A stretch of 64,000 bases of DNA, taken from assembly GCA_949130485.1 (NCBI GenBank), contig OX422201.1, positions 6,854,091 through 6,918,090 on the forward strand, in the 5' to 3' direction. Positions 7,534 through 42,146 of the stretch are shown one piece after another; the first letter of the stretch is position 1, and each line of letters starts with the position of its first letter. The position numbers and the translations under genes were made by a program. The notes beneath the pieces were generated by a model. The model did no database searches. It was not told the origin of the DNA and was given only the letters and a program-made list of their open reading frames with translations. Origin of the DNA: Agelas oroides (taxonomy: Eukaryota; Porifera; Demospongiae; Agelasida; Agelasidae).

Positions 7534-7700
7534 ATTTGTACAGTGGAATGTAAATATTATTCATCAATCATATGACTCCATCTTAGAATGCTGCGTCACC
7601 TATCAAGGTATGTTACATACTACGGAAAATTATGGACAATTAAACAATTACAATGTGACATACTTCAACTGTTGGAACATCTGGTACAACACAAACAAAG

Positions 7701-14783: not shown

Positions 14784-17700
14784 ATGTCCCCGGTTGCCTT
14801 TCTGGTACTAGCGTGTGTTCTCACATGCGCTACCGACCTCTCTTTCGCCCAGACTAGTAAGCAATAAAACCGGCGGTACCATTGTACTTTTGTAGCGCGA
14901 TCCTTTTACTCCCTGTTTGTCTACTTATGCAGATGCTTCTCGGATTGTGATCATCTCCGACAGCGCTACAATCGCCGCTGCCAGGACGGGAGTGTTCGTG
15001 TGTGTTGCGTCAGGTGACCCCGCACCGTCCATCTCTTGGAGTAGAGGTGGCGCTCCCCTGAGTAATGGTACCCGGTTCACCATCTACGAGGAGCTGGTGA
15101 CTGTGAATGGGGTGACATTTGTTGAGTCCATCTTGGAGATCTGCAGTGTAGAACAAGGAGACGCCGCGCAGTACTCCTGTGTTGCAAGCAACTCAATCGG
15201 ATCGGACACGGCTAACTTCAACTTGACCGTGAACCGTATGTTCCTTAACTAAATGTAGTCTCGCACGCCAGACCCAACCAACCCCAGCGCGGATCGCTTT
15301 CAGTTCCCCATGCATGATACTGAAAGCGATCCGCGATGAGGTTGGTTAGCCTGCGCGACTATAAACTATAGATGTGATGGTTCGTTTGAAGAAGACTCCA
15401 GTATGTTTGCATGCGATATGGAAGTCTGCCGTGAATCTGAACTCATCTTACCCCAGTTTGTGTTTTCCCTTCTAGAGACACCGCCACAGATTGTTATTTC
15501 TCCAGACAATGGCACTGTCACTACTGGCAATACTGTAATCTTTGCATGTGTGGGATATGGTACACCTAACCCAGACATCACATGGGCCAAGAGTGGCTCT
15601 CAGCTTAGCAATGGCTCTCGTATCACCATCTACGAAGAAACAGTTGTGGAAAATGGGGTGGCATTTACACAGTCCATCTTAGAGCTTTGCAGTGCTGAAG
15701 AGACAGATGCTGGGGAGTACAGCTGCACTGTCGCCAATTCTTTTGGCAACAGTTCTGTTAACTTTGAACTGGGTGTCACCTTGCAAGGTATAGAACCAAG
15801 GCATTAATATTGCTGCGATATGAAGAATGTACTTAAATTGTGCTTTATGCTTTGTTCTAGGTCGAGCTCAGGTTGTGCTTGCCCCACAGAATACATCAGT
15901 GGTAGCAGGCAACACAATTGTGATGGCTTGTGTGGGTTCTGGGTCACCTACACCCTCGCTCAACTGGAGCAGAAATGGCATGGAGCTGACAAATAGCTCA
16001 CGGTTTACCATCTACAATGAGCTGGTGACTGAGAATGGTGTGACTTTTATCGAGTCCATTCTTGAGATCTGCAGCATTGGTGAAGCAGATGCTGGGGAGT
16101 ACACTTGTGCTGTAGCGAATCAAGCTGGCTCAGATGCTGTTACAGTTCAGATTACAGTAACAGAAAGTGGAGGTGAATGTGATATAGATTATCAACTGTT
16201 ATTTATGTTATAGCCTCAATATAGGTTCTCAGTATCATGTTCATTTTGAAAGCTGTTTCAGTTTCAACACATTAATTGTGTTAATTCTGTCTTTGATACA
16301 CCTCCAGCCCCAGCTCAGATTGTGATTCGCCCTAACCAAACAACCAATGTGGATGCTGGCAACACTATCGTCGCTGTCTGTGTGGCTTATGGAGACCCCA
16401 ACCCTTCCATCACTTGGAACAGAGGAGGCACTGTACTGAGGAATGACTCCCGAGTTACCATCTATGAAGAACTTGTGACAGAAAATGGAGTAACATTCAC
16501 ACAGTCCATCATAGAAGTGTGCAGTGCAGAAGTGAGCGATGCAGGACAGTACAGCTGTTTCGCAGAGAACACCTTTGGCAATGACACAGCAGTTATTGAA
16601 CTAACTGTGAATGCAGGAGGTAAAGCAATAGTATTCACATGTGTATGAGCCTCAAATATTGACTCAATCAATCCTATATCTGCAGCTTCGCCTCAGGTTG
16701 TGATATCTCCGAGGAACTCCACTGTGAATGCTGGTAGTACAACGATACTCACCTGTGTAGGGTTTGGTAATCCAACACCATATATTACTTGGAGAAGAGG
16801 GGCTACTGAGCTTAGCAACGGCTCTCGTACCACCATCTACGAAGAGCTAGTGACGGAGAACGGGGTGAGGTTTGTGCAGTCAATCCTGGAGATCTGCAGT
16901 GTAGGGGAGGCTGACGATGGACAGTACAGCTGTACAGTGGGCAATGCACTTGGCAATGCCAGTGTCAACTTTGAACTATCAGTCACTGGTGCAGGAGGTA
17001 AGTGTGACATTCACGTGCATGACAATGTGGTAATAATAGCATGCCATATTGTGCTTGTATAAACTGCACATTCCTTTGGAAGTAGGAGTGTAGTATTACA
17101 GAAGAAACCTTCACCCCTCCAGCCCCAGCTCAGATTGTGATTCGCCCTAACCAAACAACCAATGTGGACGCTGGCAACACTATCGTCGCTGTCTGTGTGG
17201 CTTATGGAGACCCCAACCCTTCCATCACTTGGAACAGAGGAGGCACTGTACTGAGCAATGACTCCCGAGTTACTATCTATGAAGAAATAGTGACAGAAAA
17301 TGGAGTAATGTTCGTGCAGTCCATCATAGAAGTGTGCAGTGCAGAAGTGAGCGATGCAGGACAGTACAGCTGTTTCGCAGAGAACACCTTTGGCAATGAC
17401 ACAGCAGTTATTGAACTAACTGTGAATGCAGGAGGTAAAGCAATAGTATTCACATGTGTATGAGCCTCAAATATTGACTCAATCAATCCTATATCTGCAG
17501 CTTCGCCTCAGGTTGTGATATCTCCGAGGAACTCCACTGTGAATGCTGGTAGTACAACGATACTCACCTGTGTAGGGTTTGGTAATCCAACACCATATAT
17601 TACTTGGAGAAGAGGGGCTACTGAGCTTAGCAACGGCTCTCGTACCACCATCTACGAAGAGCTAGTGACGGAGAACGGGGTGAGGTTTGTGCAGTCAATC

Positions 17701-20700
17701 TTGGAGATCTGCAGTGTAGGGGAGGCTGACGATGGACAGTACAGCTGTACAGTGGGCAATGCACTTGGCAATGCCAGTGTCAACTTTGAACTATCAGTCA
17801 CTGGTGCAGGAGGTAAGTGTGACATTCACATGCATGACAATGTGGTAATAATAGCATGCCATATTGTGCTTGTATAAACTGCACATTCCTTTGGAAGTAG
17901 GAGTGTAGTATTACCAAAGAAACCTTCACCCCTCCAGCCCCAGCTCAGATTGTGATTCGCCCTAACCAAACAACCAATGTGGATGCTGGGAACACTATCG
18001 TCGCTGTCTGTGTGGCTTATGGAGACCCCAACCCTTCCATCACTTGGAACAGAGGAGGCACTGTACTGAGCAATGACTCCCGAGTTACCATCTATGAGGA
18101 ACTAGTGACAGAAAATGGAGTAATGTTCGTGCAGTCCATCATAGAGGTATGCAGTGCAGAAGTGACCGATGCAGGACAGTACAGCTGTTTCGCAGAGAAC
18201 ACCTTTGGCAATGACACAGCAGTTATTGAACTAACTGTGAATGCAGGAGGTAAAGCAATAGTAATCACATGTGTATGAGCCTCAAATATTGACTCAATCA
18301 ATCCTATATCTGCAGCTTCGCCTCAGGTTGTGATATCTCCGAGGAACTCCACTGTGAATGCTGGCAGTACAACGATACTCACCTGTGTAGGGTTTGGTAA
18401 TCCAACACCATACATTACTTGGAGAAGAGGGGCTACTGAGCTTAGCAACGGCTCTCGTACCACCATCTACGAAGAGCTAGTGACGGAGAACGGGGTGAGG
18501 TTTGTTCAGTCAATCCTGGAGATCTGCAGTGTAGGGGAGGCTGACGATGGACAGTACAGCTGTACAGTGGGCAATGCACTTGGCAATGCCAGTGTCAACT
18601 TTGAACTATCAGTCACTGGTGCAGGAGGTAAGTGTTATATCTGCTGTGTTTAACTATAGATGGTAGTGACATGCACCATTTTGCTGCACAAACTTGTTGG
18701 AAGTGGGGAAATATAGAAGAAACTTTTGCACCTCCAGCCCCAGCACAGATTGTAATTCGCCCTAACCAAACAACAAATGTGGACGCTGGGAACACTATCG
18801 TCGCTGTCTGTGTGGCTTATGGAGACCCCAACCCTTCCATCACTTGGAACAGAGGAGGCACTGTACTGAGCAATGACTCCCGAGTTACCATCTATGAAGA
18901 AATAGTGACAGAAAATGGAGTAATGTTCGTGCAGTCCATCATAGAGGTGTGCAGTGCAGAAGTGAGCGATGCAGGACAGTACAGCTGTTTCGCAGAGAAC
19001 ACCTTTGGCAATGACACAGCAGTTATTGAACTAACTGTGAATGCAGGAGGTAAAGCAATAGTATTCACATGTGTATGAGCCTCAAATATTGACTCAATCA
19101 ATCCTATATCTGCAGCTTCGCCTCAGGTTGTGATATCTCCGAGGAACTCCACTGTGAATGCTGGCAGTACAACGATACTCACCTGTGTAGGGTTTGGTAA
19201 TCCAACACCATACATTACTTGGAGAAGGGGGGCTACTGAGCTTAGCAACGGCTCTCGTACCACCATCTACGAAGAGCTAGTGACGGAGAACGGGGTGAGG
19301 TTTGTTCAGTCAATCCTGGAGATCTGCAGTGTAGGGGAGGCTGATGATGGACAGTACAGCTGTACAGTGGGCAATGCACTTGGCAATGCCAGTGTCAACT
19401 TTGAACTATCAGTCACTGGTGCAGGAGGTAAGTGTTATATCTGCTGTGTTTAACTATAGATGGTAGTGACATGCACCATTTTGCTGCACAAACTTGTTGG
19501 AAGTGGGGAAATATAGAAGAAACTTTTGCACCTCCAGCCCCAGCACAGATTGTAATTCGCCCTAACCAAACAACCAATGTGGACGCTGGCAACACTATCG
19601 TCGCTGTCTGTGTGGCTTATGGAGACCCCAACCCTTCCATCACTTGGAACAGAGGAGGCACTGTACTGAGCAATGACTCCCGAGTTACCATCTATGAAGA
19701 AATAGTGACAGAAAATGGAGTAATGTTCGTGCAGTCCATCATAGAAGTGTGCAGTGCAGAAGTGAGCGATGCAGGGCAGTACAACTGTTTCGCAGAGAAC
19801 GCCTTTGGCAATGACACAGCAGTTATTGAACTAACAGTGAACGCAGGAGGTAAAGCAATAGTGTTCACATGTGTATGAGCCTCAGATATTGACTCATTCA
19901 ATCCTATATCTGCAGCTTCGCCTCAGGTTGTGATATCTCCGAGGAACTCCACTGTGGAAGCTGGCAGTACAACGATACTCACCTGTGTAGGGTTTGGTAA
20001 TCCAACACCATACATTACTTGGAGAAGAGGGGCTACTGAGCTTAGCAATGGCTCTCGTACCACCATCTACGAAGAGCTAGTGACGGAGAACGGGGTGAGG
20101 TTTGTTCAGTCAATCCTGGAGATCTGCAGTGTAGGGGAGGCTGACGATGGACAGTACAGCTGTACAGTGGGCAATGCACTTGGCAATGCCAGTGTCAGCT
20201 TTGAACTATCAGTCACTGGTGCAGGAGGTAAGTGTTACATCTGCTGTGTTTAACTATATATGGTAGTGGCATGCACCATTGTGCTGTACAAACTTGTTGG
20301 AAGTGGGGAAATATAGAAGAAACTTTTATACCTCCAGCCCCAGCACAGATTGTAATTCGCCCTAACCAAACAACCAGTGTGGATGCTGGCAACACTATCG
20401 TTGCTGTCTGTGTGGCCTATGGAGACCCCAACCCTTCCATCACTTGGAACAGAGGAGACACTGTACTGAGCAATGACTCCCGAGTTACCATCTATGAGGA
20501 ACTAGTGACAGAAAATGGAGTAATGTTCGTGCAGTCCATCATAGAGGTGTGCAGTGCAGAAGTGAGCGATGCAGGACAGTACAGCTGTTTCGCAGAGAAC
20601 GCCTTTGGCAATGACACAGCAGTTATTGAACTAACAGTGAACGCAGGAGGTAAAGCAATAGTGTTCACATGTGTATGAGCCTCAAATATTGACTCAATCA

Positions 20701-23700
20701 ATCCTATATCTGCAGCTTCGCCTCAGGTTGTGATATCTCCGAGGAACTCCACTGTGAATGCTGGCAGTACAACGATACTCACCTGTGTAGGGTTTGGTAA
20801 TCCAACACCATACATTACTTGGAGAAGAGGGGCTACTGAGCTTAGCAACGGCTCTCGTACCACCATCTACGAAGAGCTAGTGACGGAGAACGGGGTGAGG
20901 TTTGTTCAGTCAATCCTGGAGATCTGCAGTGTAGGGGAGGCTGATGATGGACAGTACAGCTGTACAGTGGGCAATGCACTTGGCAATGCCAGTGTCAACT
21001 TTGAACTATCAGTCACTGGTGCAGGAGGTAAGTGTGACATTCACGTGCATGACAATGTGGTAATAATAGCATGCCATATTGTGCTTGTATAAACTGCACA
21101 TTCCTTTGGAAGTAGGAGTGTAGTATTACCAAAGAAACCTTCACCCCTCCAGCCCCAGCTCAGATTGTGATTCGCCCTAACCAAACAACCAATGTGGATG
21201 CTGGGAACACTATCGTCGCTGTCTGTGTGGCTTATGGAGACCCCAACCCTTCCATCACTTGGAACAGAGGAGGCACTGTACTGACCAATGACTCCCGAGT
21301 TACCATCTATGAAGAAATAGTGACAGAAAATGGAGTAATGTTCGTGCAGTCCATCATAGAAGTGTGCAGTGCAGAAGTGAGCGATGCAGGACAGTACAGC
21401 TGTTTCGCAGAGAACACCTTTGGCAATGACACAGCAGTTATTGAACTAACAGTGAACGCAGGAGGTAAAGCAATAGTGTTCACATGTGTATTAGCCTCAA
21501 ATATTGACTCATTCAATCCTATATCTGCAGCTTCGCCTCAGGTTGTGATATCTCCGAGGAACTCCACTGTGGAAGCTGGCAGTACAACGATACTCACCTG
21601 TGTAGGGTTTGGTAATCCAACACCATACATTACTTGGAGAAGGGGGGCTACTGAGCTTAGCAACGGCTCTCGTACCACCATCTACGAAGAGCTAGTGACA
21701 GAGAACGGGGTGAGGTTTGTTCAGTCAATCCTGGAGATCTGCAGTGTAGGGGAGGCTGATGATGGACAGTACAGCTGTACAGTGGGCAATGCACTTGGCA
21801 ATGCCAGTGTCAACTTTGAACTATCAGTCACTGGTGCAGGAGGTAAGTGTTATATCTGCTGTGTTTAACTATAGATGGTAGTGACATACACCATTTTGCT
21901 GCACAAACTTGTTGGAAGTGGGGAAATATAGAAGAAACTTTTGCACCTCCAGCCCCAGCACAGATTGTAATTCGCCCTAACCAAACAACCAATGTGGACG
22001 CTGGCAACACTATCGTCGCTGTCTGTGTGGCTTATGGAGACCCCAACCCTTCCATCACTTGGAACAGAGGAGGCACTGTACTGACCAATGACTCCCGAGT
22101 TACTATCTATGAAGAACTAGTGACAGAAAATGGAGTAATGTTCGTGCAGTCCATCATAGAGGTGTGCAGTGCAGAAGTGAGCGATGCAGGACAGTACAAC
22201 TGTTTCGCAGAGAACGCCTTTGGCAATGATACAGCAGCTATTGAACTAACAGTGAACGCAGGAGGTAAAGCAATAGTGTTCACATGTGTATGAGCCTCAA
22301 ATATTGACTCATTCAATCCTATATCTGCAGCTTCGCCTGAGGTTGTGATATCTCCGAGGAACTCCACTGTGGAAGCTGGCAGTACAACGATACTCACCTG
22401 TGTAGGGTTTGGTAATCCAACACCATACATTACTTGGAGAAGGGGGGCTACTGAGCTTAGCAACGGCTCTCGTACCACCATCTACGAAGAGCTAGTGACG
22501 GAGAACGGGGTGAGGTTTGTTCAGTCAATCCTGGAGATCTGCAGTGTAGGAGAGGCTGACGATGGACAGTACAGCTGTACAGTGGGCAATGTACTTGGCA
22601 ATGCCAGCGTCAACTTTGAACTATCAGTCACTGGTGCAGGAGGTAAGCATGCCACCTATGTGCATGAATGTGTTAATAGCATGCCACATCGTGCTTATAT
22701 ATACCTTTGGAAGTGGGGAGTGTAGTAGCACAAAACAAAACTGTCACCCCTCCAGCCCCAGCTCAGATTGTGATTCGCCCTAACCAAACAACAAATGTGG
22801 ATGCTGGGAACACTATCGTCGCTGTCTGTGTGGCTTATGGAGACCCCAACCCTTCCATCACTTGGAGCAGAGGAGGCACTGTACTGAGCAATGACTCCCG
22901 AGTTGCCATCTATGAAGAACTGGTGACAGAAAATGGAGTAATGTTTGTGCAGTCCATCATAGAGGTGTGCAGTGCAGAAGTGAGCGATGCAGGACAGTAT
23001 AGCTGTTTCGCAGAGAACACCTTTGGCAATGATACAGCAGTTATTGAACTAACTGTGAATGCCCAAGGTAAAGTATTGATGTTTACATGTGTTTGAGTAT
23101 TTAATATTGACTCAATCAATCCTGTACATACAGCTCCACCTCAGGTTGTGATATCTCCAAGGAACTCCACTGTGGAAGCTGGCAGTACAACGATACTCAC
23201 CTGTGTAGGGTTTGGTAATCCAACACCATACATTACTTGGAAAATGGGGGCTACTGAGCTGAGTAACGATTCTCGTACCACCATCTATGAAGAGCTAGTG
23301 ACTGAGAACGGAGTAAACTTTGTGCAGTCCATCCTGGAGATCTGCAGTGTAGGAGAGGCTGACGATGGACAGTACAGCTGTACAGTGGGCAATGAACTTG
23401 GCAATGCCAGTGTCAACTTTGAACTATCAGTCACTGCCGTAGGAGGTAAACTTGACATACTAGTTTAGTAGGACATTGTGTTTGTACGCACATCCTCTGA
23501 GGGAAGGTAGTAACTCATTGTTGTGTTCACAGATCCAGCTCAGATTGTGATTCGCCCTAACCAAACAACAAATGTGGATGCTGGCAACACTATCGCCGCT
23601 GTCTGTGTGGCCTATGGAGACCCCAACCCTTCCATCACTTGGAGCAGAGGAGACACTGTACTGAGGAATGACTCCCGAATTACCATCTATGAGGAACTGG

Positions 23701-26700
23701 TGACAGAAAATGGAGTAATGTTCGTGCAGTCCATCATAGAGGTATGCAGTGCAGAAGTGACCGATGCAGGACAGTACAGCTGTTTCGCAGAGAACGCCTT
23801 TGGCAATGATACAGCAGTTATTGAACTAACAGTCAATGCCCAAGGTAGAATACTAGAACATACATTGAACAACTTCAGTGGTTTATTTGCATACTCTCTC
23901 AAATTATCTGCTGACTCTCTGCATTGCAGTTCCTGTGATGGTAGCAACCAGTCCAGAGCCAGCTACTCGAGTGGTGGGAAACAGTGTCACTTTCACCTGT
24001 GCTGCTAGTGGCACACTGCCCCTGACTTTCATGTGGTACAAAGATGGAGAGGGTGCACCTCTTATGGCTGGAAGCAATGTCAGATTCATCAATGAAGCTA
24101 ATGAAAGCAGCCTCGTCCTTACAAACATTGCACCCTCTGATGCTGGTTCATACTACTGTGTGGCTTCCAACACTCTTGTTGGAGGGGTATTCAATTCAAC
24201 TTCCAGTCTGGCCACTCTCACTGTACAAGGTATAACTGCCCCAGTATTAGTGTAAAACTGACCTTAGCTTGAAGTGTCATGGTGTTTTTCTCCAGCTATT
24301 CCAGTTGTGACGCCAGAAAGAGGGAACACCGTCATTGGTGTTCAAGGCAGGAGAGTATCACTGCGCTTCATCATCTCGAATGCTCTCCCTGAAGTCATTC
24401 CTGCCAACATCCAGTGGTTCTTTGGTAGTTCACAGAGAGAAGTGACACAAGATTCCCGGCATACTTTCTCATCTAACAGGCAGACACTTACAATCAACTC
24501 CCTAGTACTTTCTGATCAAGGGAACTACACTTTCCAAGTCAACCACATCACAGGAGCTGTGACTGCTACTGTCTTCTTGGAAATACAAAGTCAGTACAAA
24601 CTATAGGAATTTTGAATGAAACTGCTGTTCTTTGTAATATTATCCTCTAATTGTCTCCTGTGCAGCTCCTGCTATGATTATTGAACTTGAGGATCAGACT
24701 GTTGTGGAGGGAGGCAATGCCATCTTCAATTGCACCGCACCATCTGAACCATCTGTTCACACTCTGACGTGGGAATTTATGGGAACTGTCATCTCTAATG
24801 ATAGCAAGCATGTCATTACAAGTGAGGGTGCAGATACCAGTCTGCTGACCATCTTCAGTGCGACCACCTCTGATGCTGGAGAGTACACCTGCTTTGTGGC
24901 CAATCAACACGCCAATGACTCAGCAACAGCTGAACTGGACGTGCTCAGTGAGTACTAAGTTAGAATGAATAGCAGTCAGTTGGTAGAGCTTCAGTAACTC
25001 GTGTTCTGCATTCAGTGTGTATGCAACAAAGTATATAAACACTGAAGTACTTCAGTGTTCATATTCTGATTGCATACTGTTAAGTGCAAGTATTCATTAT
25101 AAATCGCTGATTCTCTGTGTTGCAGTTCCTGTGGTGATAGCAACAAATCCAGAGCCAGCTACTCGAGTGGTGGGAAACAGTGTCACTTTCACCTGTGCTG
25201 CTAGTGGCACACTGCCCCTGACTTTCATGTGGTACAAAGATGGAGAGGGTGCACCTCTTATGGCTGGAAGCAATGTCAGATTCATCAATGAAGCTAATGA
25301 AAGCAGCCTCGTCCTTACAAACATTGCACCCTCTGATGCTGGTTCGTACTTCTGTATGGCTTCCAACACTCTTGTTGGAGGGGTATTCAATTCAACTTCC
25401 AGTCTGGCCACTCTCACTGTACAAGGTATAACTGCCCCAGTATTAGTGTAAAACTGACCTTAGCTTGAAGTGTCATGGTGTTTTTCTCCAGCTATTCCAG
25501 TTGTGACGCCAGAAAGAGGGAACACCGTCATTGGTGTTCAAGGCAGGAGAGTATCACTGCGCTTCATCATCTCGAATGCTCTCCCTGAAGTCATTCCTGC
25601 CAACATCCAGTGGTTCTTTGGTAGTTCACAGAGAGAAGTGACACAAGATTCCCGGCATACTTTCTCATCTAACAGGCAGACACTTACAATCAACTCCCTA
25701 GTACTTTCTGATCAAGGGAACTACACTTTCCAAGTCAACCACATCACAGGAGCTGTGACTGCTACTGTCTTCTTGGAAATACAAAGTCAGTACAAACTAT
25801 AGGAATTTTGAATGAAACTGCTGTTCTTTGTAATATTATCCTCTAATTGTCTCCTGTGCAGCTCCTGCTATGATTATTGAACTTGAGGATCAGACTGTTG
25901 TGGAGGGAGGCAATGCCATCTTCAATTGCACCGCACCATCTGAACCATCTGTTCACACTCTGACGTGGGAATTTATGGGAACTGTCATCTCTAATGATAG
26001 CAAGCATGTCATTACAAGTGAGGGTGCAGATACCAGTCTGCTGACCATCTTCAGTGCGACCACCTCTGATGCTGGAGAGTACACCTGCTTTGTGGCCAAT
26101 CAACACGCCAATGACTCAGCAACAGCTGAACTGGACGTGCTCAGTGAGTACTAAGTTAGAATGAATAGCAGTCAGTTGGTAGAGCTTCAGTAACTCGTGT
26201 TCTGCATTCAGTGTGTATGCACCAAAGTATATAAACACTGAAGTACTTCAGTGTTCATATTCTGATTGCATACTGTTAAGTGCAAGTATTCATTATAAAT
26301 CGCTGATTCTCTGTGTTGCAGTTCCTGTGGTGATAGCAACAAATCCAGAGCCAGCTACTCGAGTGGTGGGAAACAGTGTCACTTTCACCTGTGCTGCTAG
26401 TGGCACACTGCCCCTGACTTTCATGTGGTACAAAGATGGAGAGGGTGCACCTCTTATGGCTGGAAGCAATGTCAGATTTACCAGTGAAGCTAATGAAAGC
26501 AGCCTCGTCCTTACAAACATTGCACCCTCTGATGCTGGTTCATACTACTGTGTGGCTTCCAACACTCTTGTTGGAGGGGTATTCAATTCAACTTCCAGTC
26601 TGGCCACTCTCATTGTACAAGGTAAAATTTTATGAATGTTGCTTAATACGTTTTGACAGTGTGCTGCATTTTTTTCAGCTGTATTGAATACTGAATAGGT

Positions 26701-29700
26701 TTGTATCCTTTAAGTTCATACTGTAGCTGCACTCTCTGTGTTGCAGTTCCTGTGATGGTAGCAACCAGTCCAGAGCCAGCTACTCAACTGGTGGGAGAAA
26801 GGGTCACTTTCACCTGTGCTGCTAGCGGCACACTGCCCCTGACTTTCATGTGGTACAAAGATGGAGAGGGTGCACCTCTTATGGCTGGAAGCAATGTCAG
26901 ATTCATCAATGAAGCTAATGAAAGCAGCCTTGTCCTTACAAACATTGCGCCCTCTGATGCTGGTTCGTACTTCTGTATGGCTTCCAACACTCTTGTTGGA
27001 GGGGTATTCAATTCAACTTCCAGTCTGGCCACTCTCACTGTACAAGGTATAACTGCCCCAGTATTAGTGTAAAACTGACCTTAGCTTGAAGTGTCATGGT
27101 GTTTTTCTCCAGCTATTCCAGTTGTGACGCCAGAAAGAGGGAACACCGTCATTGGTGTTCAAGGCAGGAGAGTATCACTGCGCTTCACCATCTCGAATGC
27201 TCTCCCTGAAGTCATTCCTGCCAACATCCAGTGGTTCTTTGGTAGTTCACAGAGAGAAGTGACACAAGATTCCCGGCATACTTTCTCATCTAACAGGCAG
27301 ACACTTACAATCAACTCCCTAGTACTTTCTGATCGAGGGAACTACACTTTCCAAGTCAACCACATCACAGGAGCTGTGACTGCTACTGTCTTCTTGGAAA
27401 TACAAAGTCAGTAGTGAAATGCAGCTGCTGTTTTCCAGTCATCTTATCTACTATCATCTTGTATACATGTCTCATGTCTGAACTGCAGCTGCTATTTATC
27501 TTATTATCCTCTAATTGTCTCCTGTACAGCTCCTGCTATGATTATTGAACTTGAGGATCAGACTGTTGTGGAGGGAGGCAATGCCATCTTCAATTGCACT
27601 GCACCATCTGAACCATCTGTTCACACTCTGACATGGGAATTTATGGGAACTGTCATCTCTAATGATAGCAAGCATGTCATTACAAGTGAGGGTGCAGATA
27701 CCAGTCTACTGACCATCTTCAGTACGACCACCTCTGATGCTGGAGAGTATACCTGCTTTGTGGCCAATCAACATGCCAATGACTCAGCAACAGCAGAACT
27801 GGACGTGCTCAGTGAGTACTAACCTGGACCTTGATTTTAGCATGCAAACTAGGGTAGCCATTTATTTTATAAGTGCTCTTGAATCCCCTCTCTTACAGCT
27901 GTTCCTGTTGTTTCTGCACGTGATGGAAACTCGGTTACAACTGTTATTAGAAAAAATGTCACCCTCTCCTTCACTGTAACCCGTGACAACCCTACCATAC
28001 GCCCTAAAAATATCACCTGGCTGTTTACCAGCAGCTTAACCCCCAACACCACTCGTGTTCTCACTGTGGATGTCGACTCTCGATATAGCTTCTCCCCTGA
28101 TCGACGATCACTTACCATCAGAAATGTCACACTGACGGACGATGGAGAATACCAACTAGTGGCTGTTAATCTGGCTGGAAACAACTCAGATTACATCACA
28201 CTTTCTGTCAATGGTATGTATGTATTTGTTTATGATATATTGCACAATGTGATTTAGTCGTGTCCCACTTCAGCTGAGCCCTACATTATGGAGAATGGTG
28301 GCACCACCTCGACACGTGAGAGTGGTGAAACGGTCTCCTTCACTTGTACGGCTGATGGTGTTCCAGCCCCAGCCATTGCTTGGCTGCGAGATAACAGAGC
28401 ACTGCTGGTCAACCTGGACAACAGGCTCAGTGTTGAGACCCGCACTACCTTACCTGGACTGCGCCCATACATTACTGAGAGCAGGCGGAGTGTCCTCACT
28501 ATCTCTGACCTCACCGTGAAGGACAGTGGGAGGTACTCCTGCAAGGCCACCAATGGGATTGGTACAGATGCAGTGCTTCAAGATCCTTACCAACTGGACG
28601 TCTCTGCAGGTATAGTAACAAAGTAACCACCCGTATCAGCTGCCATTCTTCTGTCATGACATCACTGTGACATTACCTGCCTTGTAAAAATGATTATGTC
28701 ACCATGACATAAATAAGCAAAGTTACTGTACATTAATCATATATATATATATATGTCTGCACAGCACCACCACCGAATTTCTGTGGCAGTTCTCCCTGCC
28801 AGAATGGAGGCACCTGCTCCAACCAACAGTCCTCGTACAGCTGTAACTGCCCTGCAGGATTTGTTGGAAGAAACTGCGAGCTGGGTAAATGGTATTAGCT
28901 AAAATATTGTTTGTACTCAATTGAGAATGTCCATGTTCTCTTTATGCAGCTGTTCAAGTCCAGAGTGCACCATCAATCAGTGTTGGTCCAAGCCGTGTCT
29001 ATGTGCCTATTTATGAGCAAGCTAGCTTTCTTTGCCTGGTTGATGGCAGCCCCAAACCCAGTATAGCCTGGTTCAAGGATGGTGTGGAGATCCCAGGAGA
29101 GAAGTCACAATTCTTGATCATTCCCAGTGCGACATTGTCTGACAGAGGAAATTACCACTGCACAGCAACCAATGTCCTGGGAACTGCCACCTCCAACATT
29201 GGCTACCTTGGCCTATATGGTATGTATACTCAAATTTGTATGGTATAATAGTTACGTGGCTATGACAATTAATTAACCCTTTAACCACTGATGATGAGTG
29301 TACTCGTCATGCAACTTTGGCAGCATGTTATCAGTTGGAGTAATCCATTTTGAAAAAAGGTTTTGCACTAGCAAAAAAGGTGGGATAGAGGGAGGTGGGT
29401 GCGCATATTCACGACATGCCGTGCACATGGCAGTTGTCTTGGCTGGCTGTAGAAAGGCCTTGGTTGGCACTGGCTGGGCCATTTCTCTCCTTTTTAGCAC
29501 AAATGGGTGTAGAAACTGCTCCTCTGCCTTTGTAGGGGCTCCATTTCTGACACTGTAGACAGTTTTCAGTCAGGAGAAGCATTTGCTTGTTGGAGAGCTC
29601 TGACCACTGTAAGCTCGCTAATGAGTGGGTGTGGTCAAGGTCATAAACCCCAAGAGAATTGATGAAAAACCCTTAGCTCAAGTTTCCAGTGCTAGCTCAC

Positions 29701-32700
29701 AGCAGAAGTGGAAATACGGATCTTACCATAGCTTCAGAAAAACTTCGAGAAAATGAAACTCAGTGTATAATGGGTTTAACTTGTTGGATTTAGAGCAGCA
29801 TTTCACAAGACACTGATGCTAAAAGCTGTTTGTTTTGCCTTTGTAAGACATAGACTGTCTCATTCTAAAAGGTTGCAAGTCGCTCAACTGCTCGACTATA
29901 CTGTGTGTTTCTCTCCCCACACACCAAAGGGGTCTATGTGATTAGGATCGTCATCGAAATTCCACTGGACTCGAACATCTTTGCTGGCGTGGGTCCGCGT
30001 CAGAACGACCAGGATCAGGAGAGGGTGGATAACTTTGTGAATCAGGTACGCAAGATAGAGGTATAGATATGTGATCACTCCCTGATCGATTTCACTGTCT
30101 TTCCTCAACAGTTGAATGACCAGACTGCAGGCACTGAATTGCCCGGAGGCCGCAACAACTCATTCCTGATTGCCTCTCTGGGTGTTCCTCAGAATACCAC
30201 ATTCAAGTAAGGAGAACCTACATGGCTACCATCACTGTCACTCACATACCAAGATTGACTGATCTAATACTCCTCCTTTTCTCTCTCCCTTCCTCCTACT
30301 CCTCTTCCTCCTCCCCCTCTCCCTTCCTCCTCTCCCTCTCCCTTCCTCCTCCCCACTCCCAGCTCTAGCACAGGAGAACTGAGTGTCCTGGTGACAGTTG
30401 TCGATGAGGAAGCTGCCCGCACCAATGCCTCTGACCCAGGACCTAGTGGAACCGTCCTGGAGGAATTAGGAGATACAGTTGTGGAGGAGGCAGAGGAGCT
30501 GGGTGTGAATGTTACAGTGGAAAACATTGCAAGATTTGGTGAGTGAGTTGGGGGGGGGGGGGGTGGAGTAAACCTTCAGTGAGTGGAGAGAACTTTGGAG
30601 TTGGAAGCTGCAAACTCCATTTTGTTCCTGCTTTCCAGATGGCTGTCTGATGGAAAACACCACCCTTAACACTTCTTCTGGACACCTTCTGAGCTTCCAG
30701 TGGTCTGAAGTAGCCATTGGGATAACTACTATGCACCAGTGCCCGTGCAACGTCTATGGCTGTGATCAGGTGACCGTGCCACGAACTGCTTCCCGTCTGT
30801 GTGGCGGAGACATCATCTCTGGAGGACGATGGAACCAGCCCTCAGACTCCCGCTGTCGTTTCAGTAAGCTTGAGACCACTCACTAAGAATTACTCACTTG
30901 CTCTGTTTTGGTTGTGTATCCAATACAGAAATACTTTAGCGCTATGGAAATATTTTGACTATGTAAACACGTTACTAAGGAATGCACCGCAGGCCACTCA
31001 CTTGGAACGTGTGGTACTCCCCTACAGCTCGGCCAACTGTGACCGGAGACACTGCCACTGCCATTGCTGGGAGGGCTGTGACCCTCACGTTCTCCATCAG
31101 TGGGGACTATCCTCCCGTCTCCCCGAGCAACATCACCTGGGAGTTTAATGATAACACCATCAGTGTGGGAGCTGACACAAGATACACCTTCTCTGCCAAC
31201 CGACTCTCACTGACAACCTCCAACGTGTCTCTGACAGACCGAGGGTCTTATAGTCTCACAGCTAACAACCCTGCAGGGGCGAACTCGGCCTCAGTAATAC
31301 TCAATGTGAACGGTGAGTAGTGGGCAACTTAGCTACCCCACATGCAACTAACCGTTCAAATTTGGCTTTCTTTGTCTCACTTCAGCTGAGCCCTACATTA
31401 TGGAGAATGGTGGCACCACCTCGACACGTGATAGCAGTCAAACGGTCTCCTTCACTTGTACGGCTGATGGCATTCCAACTCCGGCCATCTTGTGGCTGCA
31501 AAATGGTTCCCTGCTTCAGACCAGCCAGAGCCCCAGGTTTAGTGTGTCCAACGAGACAGTGAGACCCGGACTGCGTCCAGACATCACTGAGCGGAGGCGG
31601 AGTGTCCTCACTATCTCTGACCTCAGTGAGAGGGACAGTGGGAGGTACTCCTGCAAGGCCACCAATAGGATTGGCATGACAGCTGAACTTAGAGCACCAT
31701 ATCGGCTTACTGTCAACCCTGGTGAGTAATTTGTTTGACTTGTTGCAGGTATTTAACTTAACACCCGTGTCAGTTGTTCTGTCATGACATCACTGTGACA
31801 TCATTTATGTACTCCCATGGTAAAAATGATTACATCACCATGATGTAATGGAAATGGTTATCATATTATAGTTGTTGTGTCATCATACAGCAATGTAATT
31901 GGACACGTTCATTCTGTCTGCACAGCACCACCACCAAACTTCTGTGCCAGTTCTCCTTGCCAGAATGGAGGCACCTGCTCCAACCAACAGTCCTCGTACA
32001 GCTGTAACTGCCCTGCAGGATTCAATGGAAGAAACTGTGAAAACGGTACAAGCCAACAACCCAGCTAGACTAGGACCTAAGAGTTCATCTTCTTGTCTCT
32101 TTCTCATGCAGTTGTCCAGGTTCTCTCACGACCAGTCATCCTGGCTGGACCATCCACCATCTTTGCCTCTCTCTTCCAGTCTGTGAACTTCACCTGCAAT
32201 GCCATCGGCAATCCCCAGCCCACAATCACCTGGTTCAAGGACAGCGAGACGACTCCAGTGCAGAGCGGTCCAGTCCTCATAATTCCAGAGGTGAGGCTCT
32301 CTGATAGGGGAACCTACCGTTGCAGTGCAAGGAACACTCAGGGCTCCGCCACGTCTACAGATGCCTACCTCAACATCAAGGGTTAGTCCTTCCTCCCTCT
32401 CTCTTTCCCTTCTTCCTCCCTCGTCCTCCCTCTCCCTCCCTTTCTCCCTTCCCTCTCCCCTCTCTCTCTTTCTCTCTCTATTTCTCTCCATCTCTCTCCT
32501 CTCTCTCTCTCCATTTATCTGTGTTTCTCCCTCATGAATTCTGAAGTAAGATTTGCAGTTTAGTACTTTGCTAGCACTAATATTTATCATACACTGTAGC
32601 TGATGTTACATACCATTTTTTGTACACAGGAGTCGTCCAGCTGTTGTTCACCATTATGATCCCCTCTGGCACTGCCACGGATAGAGTGCAGGGTCTCATG

Positions 32701-35700
32701 GAGGAGGTATGGTGGGAGTGTATGTATAGATGGATGGGTGGGTGGTTATGGCAGTGTATGTGATAGAGTGATAGAGTGCAGGGTCTCGTGGAGGAGGTAT
32801 GGTGGGAGTGTATGTATGGTGGGTGGGTTGGGGGATAGAGTGCAGAGTCTCGTGGAGGAGGTATGGTGGGAGTGTATGTATAGATGGATGGGTGGGTGGT
32901 TATGGCAGTGTATGTGTATGTGATAGAGTGATATGTGTTCGACCTCATTTCAGATAAACCAGCAGATTGCTGGCACCATTGTGACTGTTGGTGACACCTC
33001 TGTTACTCTCAACTCTGTTGAGCTGCCCCAGAACCCACAAATAGAGTAAGCACTTACTACCCACCAACCTGGGGTCTCTCTGTACTAATTTTTAAGCTCT
33101 TCTCACACCTCCCTCCCCCTTCCTCTCCTCTCTCCCCCACTGTCCTCCTCCCTCTCCCTCTCCCTCTCCCTCTCCCTTCTCCCCCATCTCTCAACCTCCT
33201 TCCCTCTTTTCTTTTCTCATCTCCCCCTCTCCCTCTCTCTCCCCCTCCCTCTCTCCCCCTCTCCCTCTCTCCCCCTCTCCCTCTCTCTCCCTCTCCCTCT
33301 CTCCCCCTCTCCCTCTCTCTCCCCCTCTCCCTCTCTCCCCCTCTCCCTCTCTCTCCCCCTCCCCTCTCCCCTCCCCAACATCTCTAGTCCGACCACAGGG
33401 CGAGTGCCTATCGTGGTCACAGTCTTGTCAGACACATCACCTCTCAGTGACTCCATAATCCAAGCCATCTCTGATGCTCTTGTCCAGGCTGGACAAAACC
33501 TGAACATAGCGTTGACGGTGACTGGTACCCAGCGGTTTGGTAAGTGGAGATACGGATGATTGGCACAACTTAACATCACAACTAACTTGTCTGAGAGACT
33601 ACTATCTTCAAAATTTACTCCGTCATGTTTGATGTCTCTCTCCAGATGGCTGTGGTGCAAGTACTACCCCTCTCAACAGAACCTCTGGAGAACTGCTGTG
33701 GTCTGAGGTGGCCATCGGCACGGTGCAGGAGATCATGTGTCCATGTGGAGTCCCCGTGCCCTTCACTGCCACCCGACTGTGTGCCGGAGACTTTGCGTCT
33801 GGAGGAGAGTGGCAACAGCCGTCAGACTCAGCTTGTAACTTTGATGACCAGGCTACCCAGCTTTGCCAGCTGCCTGAGGTGACCTCTCTGTCTTTTAGTG
33901 GTTTACTTCTTAGGCTCTTTAGTAAGCAAGCTAGCTCCTGTAACGAGTACATTTCTGTATTGAGAACACTAATGTCACAGAGACACTTTCAGAAGGTAAA
34001 TTAAACCGTGAACCGAGGACACCTTTCTGATCAGGACGACACTTTGGTCCTAAGATGTCCAGAATAGAGAGGTTCCAGTGTACCCCATGCAACTTTCTGT
34101 ATCTGAGGTTTATAGACTGTCAATGTAGTGTAGCCCAGTTGAAAGGGCTTGGAGGGAACATACCTCCACATGCAGCTGTGCCTCTATCCATATAAATGAG
34201 GTTTATATTACAGATATGGTTGTATAATTATGTGTTGTGTTTTCTTGACTTGCAGACTGGTATCGTGAGTCGTATTGTGTCCATAACAAACAGTTCTGAT
34301 CAGCTGGGGAGGGATGAGATTGCCATCGTCACCTCCCTCCTGGAGAACCAGACTGACATTGCCGCTGGGAATGCTACCGTAAGTGAACCACAGGACATGA
34401 TGAGCTCCTTGAAACTATAGGGCCACTGTAACTATGAGCATATGTAAATTAGTAAAAACACTACAAGACAAAGTAGTTGATGGTGGTAGCTCAATAAGGG
34501 TGTGGCAGACACTCGTAGCCCAATAAGGGTGTAGCAGACACTCCTGGACAAGGGGTCTCTTGGTGTGTGCTACCAGCTGTTGGCTCCTGGCTGCCTCTTG
34601 TGTAATGTGAAATTGAAAACTGTGTACTGGTGGTTTGTGTACTTCCCCTGCAGGTGAGCAACCAGATGTTTGATGCCATTGACAACGTACTGAAGGCTCC
34701 AATGAACAGCCTGCAGTCCAGCCAGGAGCAGTTTAACACCTCAGGAAGGTAACTATGGTAACATTCTGCTGCTTTCAACATTACTGATGTACTATCCCTC
34801 TTTGTTACAATACTCCTGCTTAAATATACTGCCATTCTTGTTCCTCAGAATCCGGTCTATGCTTGATCAGCTAGCAGACGCTTATCCTCTCACAAGGAAC
34901 CCGACCATCATCCCAAGAGACACGTTTGCCATTGTGATATATTCTGGAGTCAACCCGGCATCGTTCACTGGTCAAACTGTCACCGCACTGATGGGGAACA
35001 CCTTCCAGTTCCCTGGCTTTACCAATGAGAACGTTGGCCTGCAGGCCTTGAATGAAGCTACCGGGTCTATCACCCTTCCACGGACACTGTTCAATGGACG
35101 CAACCTTGTCAGACCAGTCAAACTGGTCTTCAATATGTACCTGAGAGAAAGTCTCTTTGTGCGGAGGCAGCAGTACCTGGTGCAGACCAACCGAACCTAC
35201 AACAGACTCGGGAGCATTGTGATGGCCGCAAGGATCAGTGGAGTTGTCCGTATCAGTGGATTAGAACAGCCAGTGCAGCAGAGTTACTACAAGAACCCTG
35301 TAAGTAGCATATTAGGCAGCCAGTGCAGAAACAATGCACCAGTCAATATGAAGAAGACCTGTTGTTCACAGTGTGGGTGGGAGAGGCACTGTGTTACCCT
35401 GACTACAAATGTCACATGCTTAATTGGGCTTGTAATTCTTTTGTGGGCAATTACTCCTGCAGTTCTTCCTCGGTCACCACCTGTTGAGTGGCCATTACAG
35501 CAGTGACCATATTGCTTGCACATACCTGGTTTCAGGTCATCTCTCTCCCTCTCTCTCTCCCTCTCTCTCTCAGGTGGTAAAGAACGGCAGGGATACCGAG
35601 TGCTCCTACTGGGACCAGGCACTAGACGGAGGCTATGGGGCATGGTCCACTGAAGGGTGCAGCCTTGTTGAGGAGAGCTATGACAAAGCTACATGCGAGT

Positions 35701-36131
35701 GCAACCACCTCACCAACTTTGCTGTTCTTCGAGTTAGCCTGCATGCTTTAAGTTAAAGTCATTTTGCAGTTGTTAGGTGTTTCTTGCAGTGTATGATGCT
35801 AATGGTGTCTGACTTATGATTACCATTTCTCCCCCTCCTCCCTCCCCCTCCTCCCTCCCCTCCCTCCCTCCCTCCCTCCCTCCCTCCCTCCCTCCCTCCC
35901 TCCCTCCCTCCCTCCCTCCCTCCCTCCCTCCCTCCCCTCCCTCCCTCCCTCCCTCCCTCCCTCCCTCCCTCCCTCCCTCCCTCCCTCCCTCGCTCAGGAT
36001 GTTAGAGTTCCGAATGAGCCTGGCATCAGTCCTTACACCATCCTGGGATGTGCATTGTGCATCCTCTTCCTCCTCGTCTGTCTCTTGACTTACCTCATCT
36101 TCAGGTACAACCACACATAGCACGTTGGTAC

Positions 36132-36166
<35 letters not shown>

Positions 36167-37587
36167 TGCAGGAGTACACTTTTCTTCAATGTTAGTCAGC
36201 TTGCAGTAACCCCCCCCCCCTCCCGCCTTGTTCTGCAGTTCACTGCGGTCCTCCATCACTGGTGTGCTGCTGATCAACCTCTGCTCGGCTCTCATTGCCC
36301 TCAACATCTCGTTCATCATCTCTACCTTTGCCCAGCCCTCTCTCGGAGCCTGTGCAGCGTTCTCTGCTGTGTTCCACTGCCTTGTGCTGGTCAGCTCGTT
36401 TGCTTTCACCACCATGGCATTGTTTAGAGCCTGGGAGCCATCCAAGTGGAGGAAGATAACTATTGGCTTTGCCATCCTAGCTGACTGGCGTAAGTTGGAA
36501 TCTTCCAATACTCACAATTGCTTGTATCATTTCTGTTTGCTCAATGATTGTTTGCTGCAATGAATACCTCTGTCTGTTTCTCTGTGCAGTGGTTGCCGTG
36601 TTGATTATGGGCGTATCTCTGGGCCCTGACCATACCAGCTACATTGTGAACATGCCTGGCGAATTGTAAGCATTCTGCAGTAATTTTACAGCAGATTGCA
36701 AAAGTCTTGCAACACGCAAGCGGAACAGTGGAAAACCACAATTGATTTACCACATATGAATCTGATTATCTTTCCCGCCTCAGCATGCCCTTCCTCTTCA
36801 ATTATGTCCAATTATGGTTTTGCACTTGCTTGTTGCAAGACTTTTGCAATCTGCTGTACCAGTAATCTACTCAGTAATCTACTCAGTAATCTACTCAGGT
36901 TGAAGTGGCACTATTTAACTGTTGTTTCTCTCCAGCTGTCGTCCAAGTGGTCTCCCCTATCAGCTTGGTCTGCTTCTGCCCAGTTGCCTCAGCCTGGCTG
37001 TGGCATTCATTCTGCTCTTGGTGGCCCCATGCATCCGATCACGCCACCCCAATGGCAAAGATGACAGCAGCACCTGGGTGAGGGAGTACATCGGGCTGTT
37101 TGTGATTGTCGTCCTGTTCTGCATCGCCTGGGGCTTTGGCATCCCTGCGACCCACCCCCTCGAAAGGGGCAACTTACTCAGGACTGCCTTCCAGATCATC
37201 TTTATCGCTGGCTGCTTCCTATTGGGGATCACTGTGTTCCTGTTCTTCTGTCTCCTCTCACGGGAGGTGAGGGAAAATTGGTTGAAGCTGCTTCCCCGTG
37301 TGTGTAGGAGTAAACGTGGCGGGTACGCATTCACCGACAACACTCGACTTTCAGCGGATGAGAATCTCTACATGACACAGTATGATACAACAAAGCCTAC
37401 TGAGATGGAAACCAAAGGTGCATCCCCTGAAGCTGGTGAGATGGGTGAGAAACGTCTGAGTAGTGACGTGGTGATTCCTAACCCTGCTGCTGCTGCTGCT
37501 GCTACTGCTTCTGGGGATGAGACCAAGGTTGATCTGGCAATGGAAGGGACCTATGAAGAAATCGACAACAAAGATACCAAGCTGTGA
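14784..37587 (+). CDS. Giant adhesion GPCR with 38 Ig-like domains, 2 EGF, 2 HormR-like domains, GAIN/GPS and 7TM
   Basis: 57 predicted exons sum to 14,988 nt without a frame break (4,995 aa). Exon 1 (14784-14856) encodes a signal peptide [15 protein letters not shown]. Ig1-3: 14933, 15476, 15861. Then A/B Ig exons alternate from 16308 to 23844. C-D-E Ig exons run from 23930 to 27811. Two stalk blocks follow: Ig 27899, Ig 28274, EGF 28765, Ig 28950, SEA-like 29930-30538, HormR-like 30639; and Ig 31028, Ig 31386, EGF 31926, Ig 32112, SEA-like 32630-33539, HormR-like 33646. GAIN region 34256-35299. GPS exon 35574-35732 (ECSYWDQ...AWSTEGC...[12 protein letters not shown], with the HL^T cleavage triad). 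7TM from 35998-36104 (TM1) through 36239, 36590 and 36936-37587. The tail contains TYEEIDN and ends DTKL. Family B2 receptors sense adhesion through a tethered agonist after GPS cleavage. Ligand and role are unknown. Confidence 0.88.
15256..15361. mobile_element. Short hairpin MITE between receptor exons Ig1 and Ig2
   Basis: It begins TAGTCTCGCACGCCAGACC and ends GCCTGCGCGACTA. The inner arms AGCGCGGATCGCTTTCAG and CTGAAAGCGATCCGCGATG fold into a strong hairpin. Target duplications are not clear. By its terminal sequence it resembles the TAGTCTCG family. Confidence 0.6.
16308..23844 (+). repeat. Alternating A/B Ig-exon array (10 A, 9 B exons)
   Basis: A exons (312 nt, start G|CCCCAGCTCAGATTGT): 16308, 17123, 17938, 18738, 19538, 20338, 21153, 21953, 22756, 23533. 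B exons (312 nt, start G|CTTCGCCTCAGG): 16686, 17501, 18316, 19116, 19916, 20716, 21531, 22331, 23134. Every exon is 104 codons and phase 1-1. The A-to-B intron is 66 bp in the nearly identical copies. The unit repeats every 815, 815, 800, 800, 800, 815, 800, 803 and 777 bp. Units 1-8 differ by only a few bases; unit 9 and A10 are more diverged. All encode I-set-like Ig domains with C...W...D.GQYSC plus an extra Cys (EVC or EIC) before the F strand. Confidence 0.95.
23930..27811 (+). repeat. Repeated C-D-E Ig-exon block
   Basis: Three Ig exon types recur in order: C (300 nt) at 23930, 25126, 26322, 26747; D (294 nt) at 24296, 25492, 27113; E (282 nt) at 24666, 25862, 27530. The first two C-D-E units are spaced by exactly 1,196 bp and are almost identical through the introns. 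C3 stands alone, followed by a fourth C with a full D-E. D reads [20 protein letters not shown] and looks like a V-set-like form without the canonical cysteine pair. C and E have the usual C/W/C pattern. All exons are phase 1-1. Confidence 0.9.
27899..33878 (+). repeat. Tandem duplication of the receptor stalk (Ig-Ig-EGF-Ig-SEA-like-HormR-like)
   Basis: Block 1 (27899-30863) and block 2 (31028-33878) have the same exon order and, for four exons, identical lengths: second Ig 336 and 336 nt, EGF 120 and 120, third Ig 270 and 270. The HormR-like exons share the DGC...L.WSEVAIG...CPC...R.C.GD...GG.W.QPSDS.C.F pattern. The EGF exons share [21 protein letters not shown] almost exactly. Only block 2 leads into GAIN, GPS and 7TM. 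Confidence 0.85.
29220..29929 (+). other. 710-bp intron of the receptor gene without recognised content
   Basis: It lies between the block-1 Ig exon (28950-29219) and the SEA-like exon (29930). I see no exon, RNA or clear repeat; short open frames have no protein features. Confidence 0.5.
35826..35995. repeat. (CCCT)n-type microsatellite directly upstream of the TM1 exon
   Basis: Nearly pure CCCT/CCTCC repeats fill the intron between the GPS exon and the TM1 exon and serve as the pyrimidine tract of the acceptor at 35996-35997. Confidence 0.9.

Positions 37588-42056: not shown

Positions 42057-42146
<90 letters not shown>

Follow-up and report, generated by a model that had tools for sequence, protein, structure and literature searches.

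A predicted adhesion GPCR with recently duplicated Ig exon arrays and a tandem paralogue in the sponge Agelas oroides

Ig-bearing adhesion GPCRs are already known from sponges. For Amphimedon queenslandica, the legend of a domain figure lists Ig, I-set, EGF, HRM and GPS, and GPS was assigned to 28 of 40 adhesion GPCRs and HRM to at least eight; unlike the gene described below, which is an extreme variant of such receptors, these proteins are not credited with a large Ig array in the excerpts of that paper (PMC4302439). A literature search that covered titles and abstract openings, with most subscription journals outside its coverage, found no paper on an Ig-array adhesion GPCR. Judged by analogy of layout, the nearest precedent appears to be the vertebrate receptor ADGRG4 (GPR112), which combines a tip domain, a very long glycosylated stalk and a SEA-HRM-GAIN-7TM part and has been proposed as a distance or force sensor; the excerpts of the same paper, which also assign a SEA domain to ADGRG6, mention no exon array for ADGRG4 of the kind present here (PMC10687090). 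The tip of ADGRG4 is pentraxin-like and its stalk is a mucin-like Ser/Thr repeat, whereas the sponge gene has three Ig domains at the tip and a stalk of folded Ig domains.

The window analysed in the present study, a stretch of 64,000 nucleotides, contains this gene (gene 1; 14784-37587, + strand), whose model comprises 57 exons with consistent phases, joined into one chain from the start ATG at 14784 to the stop codon finishing at 37587, and encodes a predicted protein of 4,995 aa. An earlier note on this DNA had proposed a 38-Ig adhesion GPCR in one open frame, and the predicted model recovers the same span and protein length, with the GPS and the 7TM region. A signal peptide is followed by 38 Ig exons, two EGFs and two SEA-like/HRM-like units, and then by GAIN, GPS and 7TM. 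Directly downstream lies a paralogue (gene 2) with the same membrane-proximal layout, a feature absent from the earlier note. The features are as follows:

14784-14856, +: exon 1, start codon and signal peptide (hydrophobic stretch, residues 4-22)
14933-16172, +: Ig1-Ig3, three unique A/B-like Ig exons, membrane-distal tip (Pfam I-set 3.7e-16, 1.1e-17, 7.4e-16)
16308-23844, +: A/B array A1 B1 ... A9 B9 A10, 19 Ig exons of 312 bp each, phase 1-1
23930-27811, +: C-D-E array C1 D1 E1 C2 D2 E2 C3 C4 D3 E3, 10 Ig exons
27899-30863, +: module copy 1, Ig F1, Ig G1, EGF1, Ig H1, SEA-like (3 exons), HRM-like
31028-33878, +: module copy 2, Ig F2, Ig G2, EGF2, Ig H2, SEA-like (3 exons), HRM-like
34256-35299, +: GAIN domain, three exons (profile match to ADGRG6 6v55)
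35574-35732, +: GPS exon, HL|T tripeptide intact, start of the putative tethered agonist (Pfam GPS 4e-15)
35998-37587, +: 7TM region (4 exons) and cytoplasmic tail ending DTKL (7tm_2 2.3e-6, hydropathy)
38061-48539, +: gene 2, tandem paralogue, about 2,000 aa, without the array

The 38 Ig exons of gene 1 comprise the three unique ones, ten A, nine B, the ten of the C-D-E array and F-G-H twice, and each has phase 1 at both ends. When A1, B1, C1, D1, E1, Ig1-3, F1, G1, H1, F2, G2, H2 and A10 were run singly through Pfam, all 15 passed the I-set cut-off; the remaining 23 are copies of these tested Igs, 0-9% different. The gene-finder score of the chain is 1052, whereas 12 dinucleotide shuffles scored 54-101 and the reverse strand reached 163, so the chain is not due to chance; the reverse-strand reading, a 64-exon score-best chain in the same region, was rejected because of its far lower score. 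Strict gene-finder settings split the locus into several genes, relaxed splice thresholds gave one chain, and this was then edited manually, guided by phase, by splice scores and by the second copy of the module. The ATG exon took the place of a start at 14812 and of spurious exons further upstream (13059-14461), A2 was cut to 312 bp, H1 was merged, the starts of SEA1a and EGF2 were set, the GPS exon was added, the last exon was extended to the stop, and small exons at 29559, 31872, 32767 and beyond 37587 were removed.

The GPS/GAIN region with its HL|T tripeptide lies next to TM1, followed by a class B2-type 7TM region, and the adhesion GPCR identity claimed in the earlier note is well supported by the GPS and 7tm_2 matches (the latter with 27.5 bits against a cut-off of 20.6) and by the alignment of GAIN and 7TM with ADGRG6 and ADGRL structures. 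The profile of the part from SEA-like to GPS gave one continuous match to ADGRG6 (GPR126) 6v55, from HRM to GPS (E 4.8e-20), the best solved HRM-GAIN-GPS match to gene 1; the GAIN region also matches ADGRL structures. ADGRG6 has CUB and pentraxin domains in place of Ig. The 7TM profile alignment runs with the ADGRG2, G6 and L3 structures through 7TM, and seven hydropathy peaks of 1.9-2.8 follow the GPS, against an ectodomain maximum of 1.54 past the signal peptide. The donor of the GPS-TM1 intron is weak (GTTAGC). Autoproteolysis and tethered-agonist activation of the gene 1 product are predicted from the motif.

The membrane-proximal module is duplicated in gene 1, which the earlier note had not described. 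HRM is the sole Pfam match in its region, and its three copies scored 19.5, 24.2 and 21.4 bits, below the cut-off of 26.2, hence "HRM-like". The SEA-like region of the receptors had no family match; the label "SEA-like" comes from a β-α-β-β-α-β order in a low-confidence model (mean pLDDT 53, about 40-86 over that stretch) of the relative P0001, and a whole-protein fold search, with only Ig matches among the 50 rows listed, has no bearing on it. P0001, a JGI metagenome protein of 1078 aa known only from its first Ig onward, resembles gene 1 in its order Ig-EGF-Ig-SEA-like-HRM-like-GAIN-GPS-7TM, shares 37% identity with the C-terminal 1,064 aa of the gene 1 product, and has the same HL|T and the same DTKL end. 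The earlier note held that adhesion GPCRs seldom have more than a few Ig domains; the full-length search with gene 1, aimed at proteins of its size, listed a single protein, an ADGRG4, and no Ig-rich relative. One of the four proteins listed for gene 2 is named ADGRG4. A profile search with alignment A1 gave 163 matches, the best 120 of which are mostly EGF and Ig proteins, include PF00002 in six cases (P0022, P0061, P0070, P0071, P0073, P0074) and contain no sponge receptor by name.

Repeat families duplicated within the gene account for 29 of the 38 Igs, and this duplication is mostly recent. Ten A and nine B exons followed by repeated C-D-E exons, as previously described, were recovered as tandem copies. 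The description of the units as nearly identical including introns applies to units 1-8 (A exon, intron and B exon), which differ from one another at 11-31 sites per 690 bp, but it fits neither unit 9 (53-62 differences per 690 bp) nor the B-to-A introns, seven of nine of which sort into two types, 32-41 of 109 sites apart, while the last two match neither. The exons themselves differ at 6-19 (A1-A8) and 1-11 (B1-B8) sites per 312 bp, and the A-to-A spacing is, in order, 815, 815, 800, 800, 800, 815, 800, 803 and 777 bp. In the A-B units, the four-gamete test gives an Rmin of 10 over 690 bp, with incompatibility at 126 of the 231 informative site pairs. This mosaic structure, together with the two old intron types sitting beside little-differing A and B exons, points to repeated unequal exchange or conversion within the array. 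The claim of a recently copied array is borne out, also by the close similarity of C-D-E copies 1 and 2, and since it is both recently copied and recombining, variation in Ig copy number is plausible. Scans for the A-B unit in viral contig and genome contig collections gave 8 and 48 pattern matches, with no relative among them.

The assembly of near-identical units is difficult, and C-D-E copies 1 and 2 differ at only 8 sites in 1,196 bp (seven of them inside exon C), a level that would allow two alleles set in tandem; the copy number might thus be partly an artefact of collapsed, duplicated or haplotype-joined repeats. We consider this very improbable, since every pair of the nine A-B units has at least 11 differences per 690 bp, N is absent from the window and the frames are all intact. 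It is also doubtful, if less so, that the length has no specific role and that symmetric exons and unequal crossing over produced both the A/B and the C-D-E expansion as tolerated, near-neutral by-products. The symmetry of the Ig exons throughout and the intact frame of the array-less paralogue are consistent with such instability, but the frame and the GT/AG borders are kept in 29 of 29 repeat exons, and pN/pS in A and B is well under 1.

Among the copies A1-A10, pN/pS is 0.21 (95% 0.10-0.40), and among B1-B9 it is 0.21 (95% 0.08-0.45); for C1-C4 the value of 0.74 (0.27-2.81) has too wide an interval to decide. The A-versus-B difference and the pN/pS of the pairs Ig2-Ig3, Ig2-A1, Ig2-B1 and A1-B1 were left out, since the comparison is ungapped and the classes are out of register. 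The differences among A and among B copies are purifying rather than diversifying, and the positive selection predicted earlier is not supported, as far as copies compared within one genome can test it. These values weigh against a self/non-self or immune recognition receptor with an Ig array varying between individuals, the view of the earlier note, which we regard as improbable. A recent, mosaic and probably length-changing array and the tandem gene pair speak in its favour. Alr1 and Alr2 of Hydractinia are noted for allelic diversity rather than for internal Ig arrays, and they are not known as 7TM receptors. They offer a parallel as Ig-superfamily surface proteins of a polymorphic gene cluster and are regarded as acting in homophilic adhesion (PMC11876637). 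Excerpts on other sponges report an Aplysina aerophoba gene for a GPS-bearing adhesion GPCR, upregulated after exposure to microbial patterns (PMC6208332), and SRCR repeats in some Amphimedon adhesion GPCRs, linked by the authors to immunity (PMC4302439). In the Amphimedon graft response, however, cell-adhesion genes were not significantly enriched, and the main text of that report contains neither "GPCR" nor "immunoglobulin" (PMC5450542).

Gene 1 seems closer to a tether of great length that is still changing than to a diversified self/non-self receptor. Our tentatively preferred reading, held at slightly less than an even chance, is an adhesion GPCR of the tethered-agonist kind, whose short tip would sit on an N-glycosylated Ig stalk of exceptional length. 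The 19 array Igs contain 57 N-glycan sequons, compared with 30.8 +/- 4.7 in shuffles, a surplus that reflects three sites copied 19 times and not 57 independent events. The 29 repeated Ig domains would hold the short divergent tip (Ig1-3) away from the cell, at a distance of ~150 nm if extended, with ~4 nm per Ig domain. Tip binding and pull, or an altered tension of the rod, might be passed on through the module-HRM-GAIN region and uncover the agonist peptide that follows the HL|T cleavage site, with a putative G-protein-coupled output. Given phase 1-1 symmetry in every Ig exon and recombination within the array, the stalk could change its length by whole domains with the frame unbroken. The homogeneity of the array may, on the other hand, stem from young age and conversion more than from a mechanical role, and the Ig rod need not be uniform, since five Igs of gene 1 (D1-D3, F1 and F2) are cysteine-free. 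If the model holds at the RNA level, the receptor would owe its ectodomain length to an exon array that recombines and was copied recently. That would provide a natural means of varying stalk length on one signalling core, with the array-less paralogue adjoining as a control, for testing distance and force reading by adhesion GPCRs, and also a locus to type for individual Ig copy number.

Counting against the tether, the array Igs themselves could be binding sites. A multivalent adhesion rod, in which binding, perhaps homophilic, takes place on the A/B Igs themselves and avidity depends on how many copies there are, is possible but unlikely. Such a rod is suggested by the 19 A/B Igs, similar within each class, and by the conserved extra cysteine and sequons, which could link or glycosylate side-by-side chains; ADGRE5, where a change in EGF-repeat number alters CD55 binding, provides a precedent in the part of the source drawn on (PMC13197933). 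The domain composition of gene 2, which has an intact frame, comprises nine divergent A/B-like Igs, Ig G, EGF, Ig H, SEA-like, HRM-like, GAIN, GPS and 7TM (11 Igs), and the presence of A/B-type Igs in this array-less paralogue indicates that the basic function needs no repeat. Arthropod Dscam-hv likewise has similar Ig exons arrayed within one gene, and Dscam is the best sequence match of the A4 Ig among solved structures. In Dscam, the exons have diverged from one another and are used in a mutually exclusive way, whereas the gene 1 copies are 0-9% different within a class, symmetric and all in one open chain.

The tether reading also draws on a third cysteine just past strand E, which all 22 A/B-type Igs of gene 1 carry. 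In the model of A4 (pLDDT 94), a strand ends at residue 70 and this cysteine is residue 71. Its presence in every such Ig is a structural feature open to direct test. The control set, 63 Ig domains of 12 proteins from the profile search (some of them isoforms of one gene), has a mostly polar column at this position, with one Cys among the 43 domains that have a letter there, and that one (P0093) looks like a strand-F Cys misplaced in the alignment. The titin I-band resembles gene 1 in its long Ig tandem and in the third cysteine of some domains, but the titin triad is buried and occupies strands B, F and G according to the excerpt used (PMC5766482), while that of gene 1 occupies B, F and the end of E. 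A length-coded receptor, with copy number and mosaic make-up varying by unequal exchange between individuals or cell lineages and with the match or mismatch of two side-by-side Ig rods read through linkage or registration by strand-E cysteines and glycans, is the least probable of the readings, a long shot; if true, it would tie G-protein signalling to individuality or to the distance between tissues. In gene 2, the strand-E Cys is present in eight of nine A/B-type Igs, and one of these eight has lost both canonical cysteines and retained the strand-E Cys.

In the gene model, which was predicted from genomic DNA and finished by hand, the 57 exons of the Ig-array adhesion GPCR gene (gene 1) form a single plus-strand chain with all junctions in phase, running from the start ATG at 14784 to a stop codon ending at 37587 and encoding a predicted product of 4,995 aa. 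The gene finder scored this locus at 1052; 12 dinucleotide shuffles gave 54–101 and the reverse strand 163. All 38 Ig exons have phase 1-1. The predicted protein begins with a signal peptide, the unique distal domains Ig1–3 and an array of alternating Ig exon types, A1 B1 to A9 B9 and A10, followed by the Ig exons C1 D1 E1 C2 D2 E2 C3 C4 D3 E3; a membrane-proximal module, F-G-EGF-H-SEA-like-HRM-like (F, G and H being Ig exons), then occurs twice ahead of GAIN, GPS, 7TM and a tail ending in DTKL. Pfam searches supported an Ig assignment in 15 of 15 exons tested among the 38 and indicated two EGFs, the GPS (4e-15) and 7tm_2 (2.3e-6), which, together with the in-frame chain, bears out the description of a 38-Ig adhesion GPCR in the earlier note. 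Hydropathy analysis gave seven peaks of 1.9–2.8 in the 7TM part (eight windows, two adjoining ones being counted as one helix), whereas no ectodomain value past the signal peptide exceeds 1.54. HRM was the sole match for the three HRM-like copies, each below the Pfam cut-off, and a profile built on three sequences, spanning the SEA-like part through the GPS, aligned HRM-to-GPS unbroken with ADGRG6 (6v55, 4.8e-20). The weakest junction of the model is the donor GTTAGC after the GPS exon; gene 2, the tandem paralogue, has a splice junction at the equivalent place (NFAVL, then D one residue later). The DTKL C-terminus (37573–37584) is also found in P0001, a JGI metagenome protein related to both genes, while gene 2 ends in STEF; DTKL matches the class I PDZ-binding pattern.

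Units 1–8 of the array, each composed of an A exon, an intron and a B exon, differ pairwise at 11–31 positions per 690 bp (unit 9: 53–62), and the mean divergence of their 66-bp A-B introns is 2.8%. Seven B-A introns fall into two types, of 125 bp (B1-A2, B2-A3, B6-A7) and 110 bp (B3-A4, B4-A5, B5-A6, B7-A8), with at most 8 differences inside a length type versus 32–41/109 across types; introns B8-A9 and B9-A10 belong to neither. The flanking exons hardly separate these types (3.3 and 4.2 differences within versus 5.1 between for B exons, 7.3 and 9.8 versus 10.6 for A exons), except that two sites at the extreme start of the A exon track the intron type. The four-gamete test on units 1–8 failed for 126 of 231 informative-site pairs, requiring at least 10 exchanges, part of which recurrent mutation could imitate. 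Gene conversion or unequal crossing over would produce such a mosaic. Between C-D-E copies 1 and 2, exons D and E and two of the introns show no differences, the third intron shows one and exon C seven. The gene 1 EGF exons (28765–28884 and 31926–32045) are 90% identical to each other, exceeding F, H, the SEA-like and HRM-like parts (37–56%) and G (75%) of the same module copies, which hints at local gene conversion of the EGF exons.

The earlier note also named positive selection on exposed Ig faces as a sign that would support its reading. Within this one genome, pN/pS between copies was 0.21 for A1–A10 (95% 0.10–0.40), 0.21 for B1–B9 (0.08–0.45) and 0.74 for C1–C4 (0.27–2.81, an interval spanning 1), the intervals being bootstrapped over codons, with copy pairs not independent and the measure blurred by conversion. 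These between-copy values give no sign of diversification among A or B copies in this genome and speak against a diversified recognition face; the interpretation in the earlier note is supported in part, for a recently copied Ig array on an adhesion GPCR.

Gene 2 (38061–48539, plus strand), a second Ig adhesion GPCR gene, begins about 470 bp downstream of gene 1. It carries nine A/B-like Igs followed by Ig G, EGF, Ig H, SEA-like, HRM-like, GAIN, GPS (HL|T) and 7TM, with one copy of the membrane-proximal module versus two in gene 1, and shares 44% identity with gene 1 across the last 1,064 aa. Pfam detects its GPS and listed no 7tm_2 at E 0.01, so its 7TM was assigned by aligning gene 2 to gene 1 and P0001. 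The nine A/B-like Igs diverge strongly among themselves and cluster together, apart from the gene 1 Igs (support 87/95 in a single tree of 23 rows, 15 of whose 19 inner branches are weak); the Ig array is therefore confined to gene 1. P0001 (1078 aa) shows the gene 1 layout from Ig G through the DTKL end (37% identity). A full-protein search scoring HRM to tail in 1,225 candidates of about 2,750–8,740 aa, which may miss distant relatives, listed one match, a rodent ADGRG4.

Each of the 22 A/B-type Igs in gene 1 contains three cysteines, the third within the motif I/L-E-I/V/L-C; it recurs in eight of nine such Igs of gene 2, including one lacking both canonical cysteines (40098–40400). In another gene 2 Ig (40475–40822) the third cysteine is lost and a cysteine sits in an insertion. 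In the A4 model (pLDDT 94) a strand, which by strand order would be strand E, ends at residue 70, and the third cysteine is residue 71. The same profile matched 63 Ig domains in 12 other proteins, several of them isoforms of one another; of these domains, 43 carry a letter in the corresponding column (S 16, K 5, H 4, R 3, others, and C 1), and the single C looks misaligned. Judging by these letters, the position is probably surface-exposed, and within its own domain the cysteine is probably unpaired. The titin Ig triad differs, being described as buried and on strands B, F and G (PMC5766482).

The 19 A/B array Igs contain 57 N-X-S/T sequons, three per Ig, versus 30.8 ± 4.7 in shuffles; the surplus does not represent 57 independent events, since much of it is three sites copied 19 times. 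Five gene 1 Ig exons have no cysteine whatsoever:

Cysteine-free Ig exons of gene 1
24296–24589, plus strand, D type
25492–25785, plus strand, D type
27113–27406, plus strand, D type
27899–28213, plus strand, F type
31028–31312, plus strand, F type

We favour a reading in which the three-Ig tip would be borne on a long glycosylated Ig stalk belonging to a tethered-agonist receptor. ADGRG4 has the most similar layout, a tip domain carried by a very long stalk and followed by SEA-HRM-GAIN, and has been proposed to be a distance or force sensor (PMC10687090). The main rival is a multivalent rod, in which the Ig repeats themselves would bind; for repeat-number tuning there is a precedent in ADGRE5, whose affinity for CD55 reportedly changes with EGF number (PMC13197933). 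Immune or self/non-self recognition is possible, given that in the sponge Aplysina aerophoba an adhesion GPCR gene is upregulated upon exposure to microbial patterns (PMC6208332), but no feature of the gene 1 locus shows it. The compact introns and the type of gene make a sponge the likely source. Sponge adhesion GPCRs bearing Ig, EGF, HRM and GPS domains have been published (PMC4302439), and gene 1, with its glycosylated stalk as the favoured reading, is a variant of that type, notable for its scale, a recombining array adjoining an array-less paralogue, and the putative strand-E cysteine; the third cysteine and the sequons were absent from the earlier note.

The surroundings of the two genes contain the following features; the small predicted gene had no Pfam match at E 0.01, and the two minisatellites are unlike in sequence, the best rotation matching 14/37.

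Features neighbouring the tandem genes
within about 1000–13000, minus strand, ES2-like gene (PF09751)
within about 1000–13000, plus strand, DNAAF11-like gene (PF23602)
within about 1000–13000, minus strand, AAA-domain, clamp-loader-like gene (PF00004)
48785–49926, small predicted gene with a secreted-looking start, MLKLAVFVCLVVLCAAQ
1651–2544, minisatellite, 37-bp period, 24 copies
8715–10831, minisatellite, 37-bp period, 56 copies
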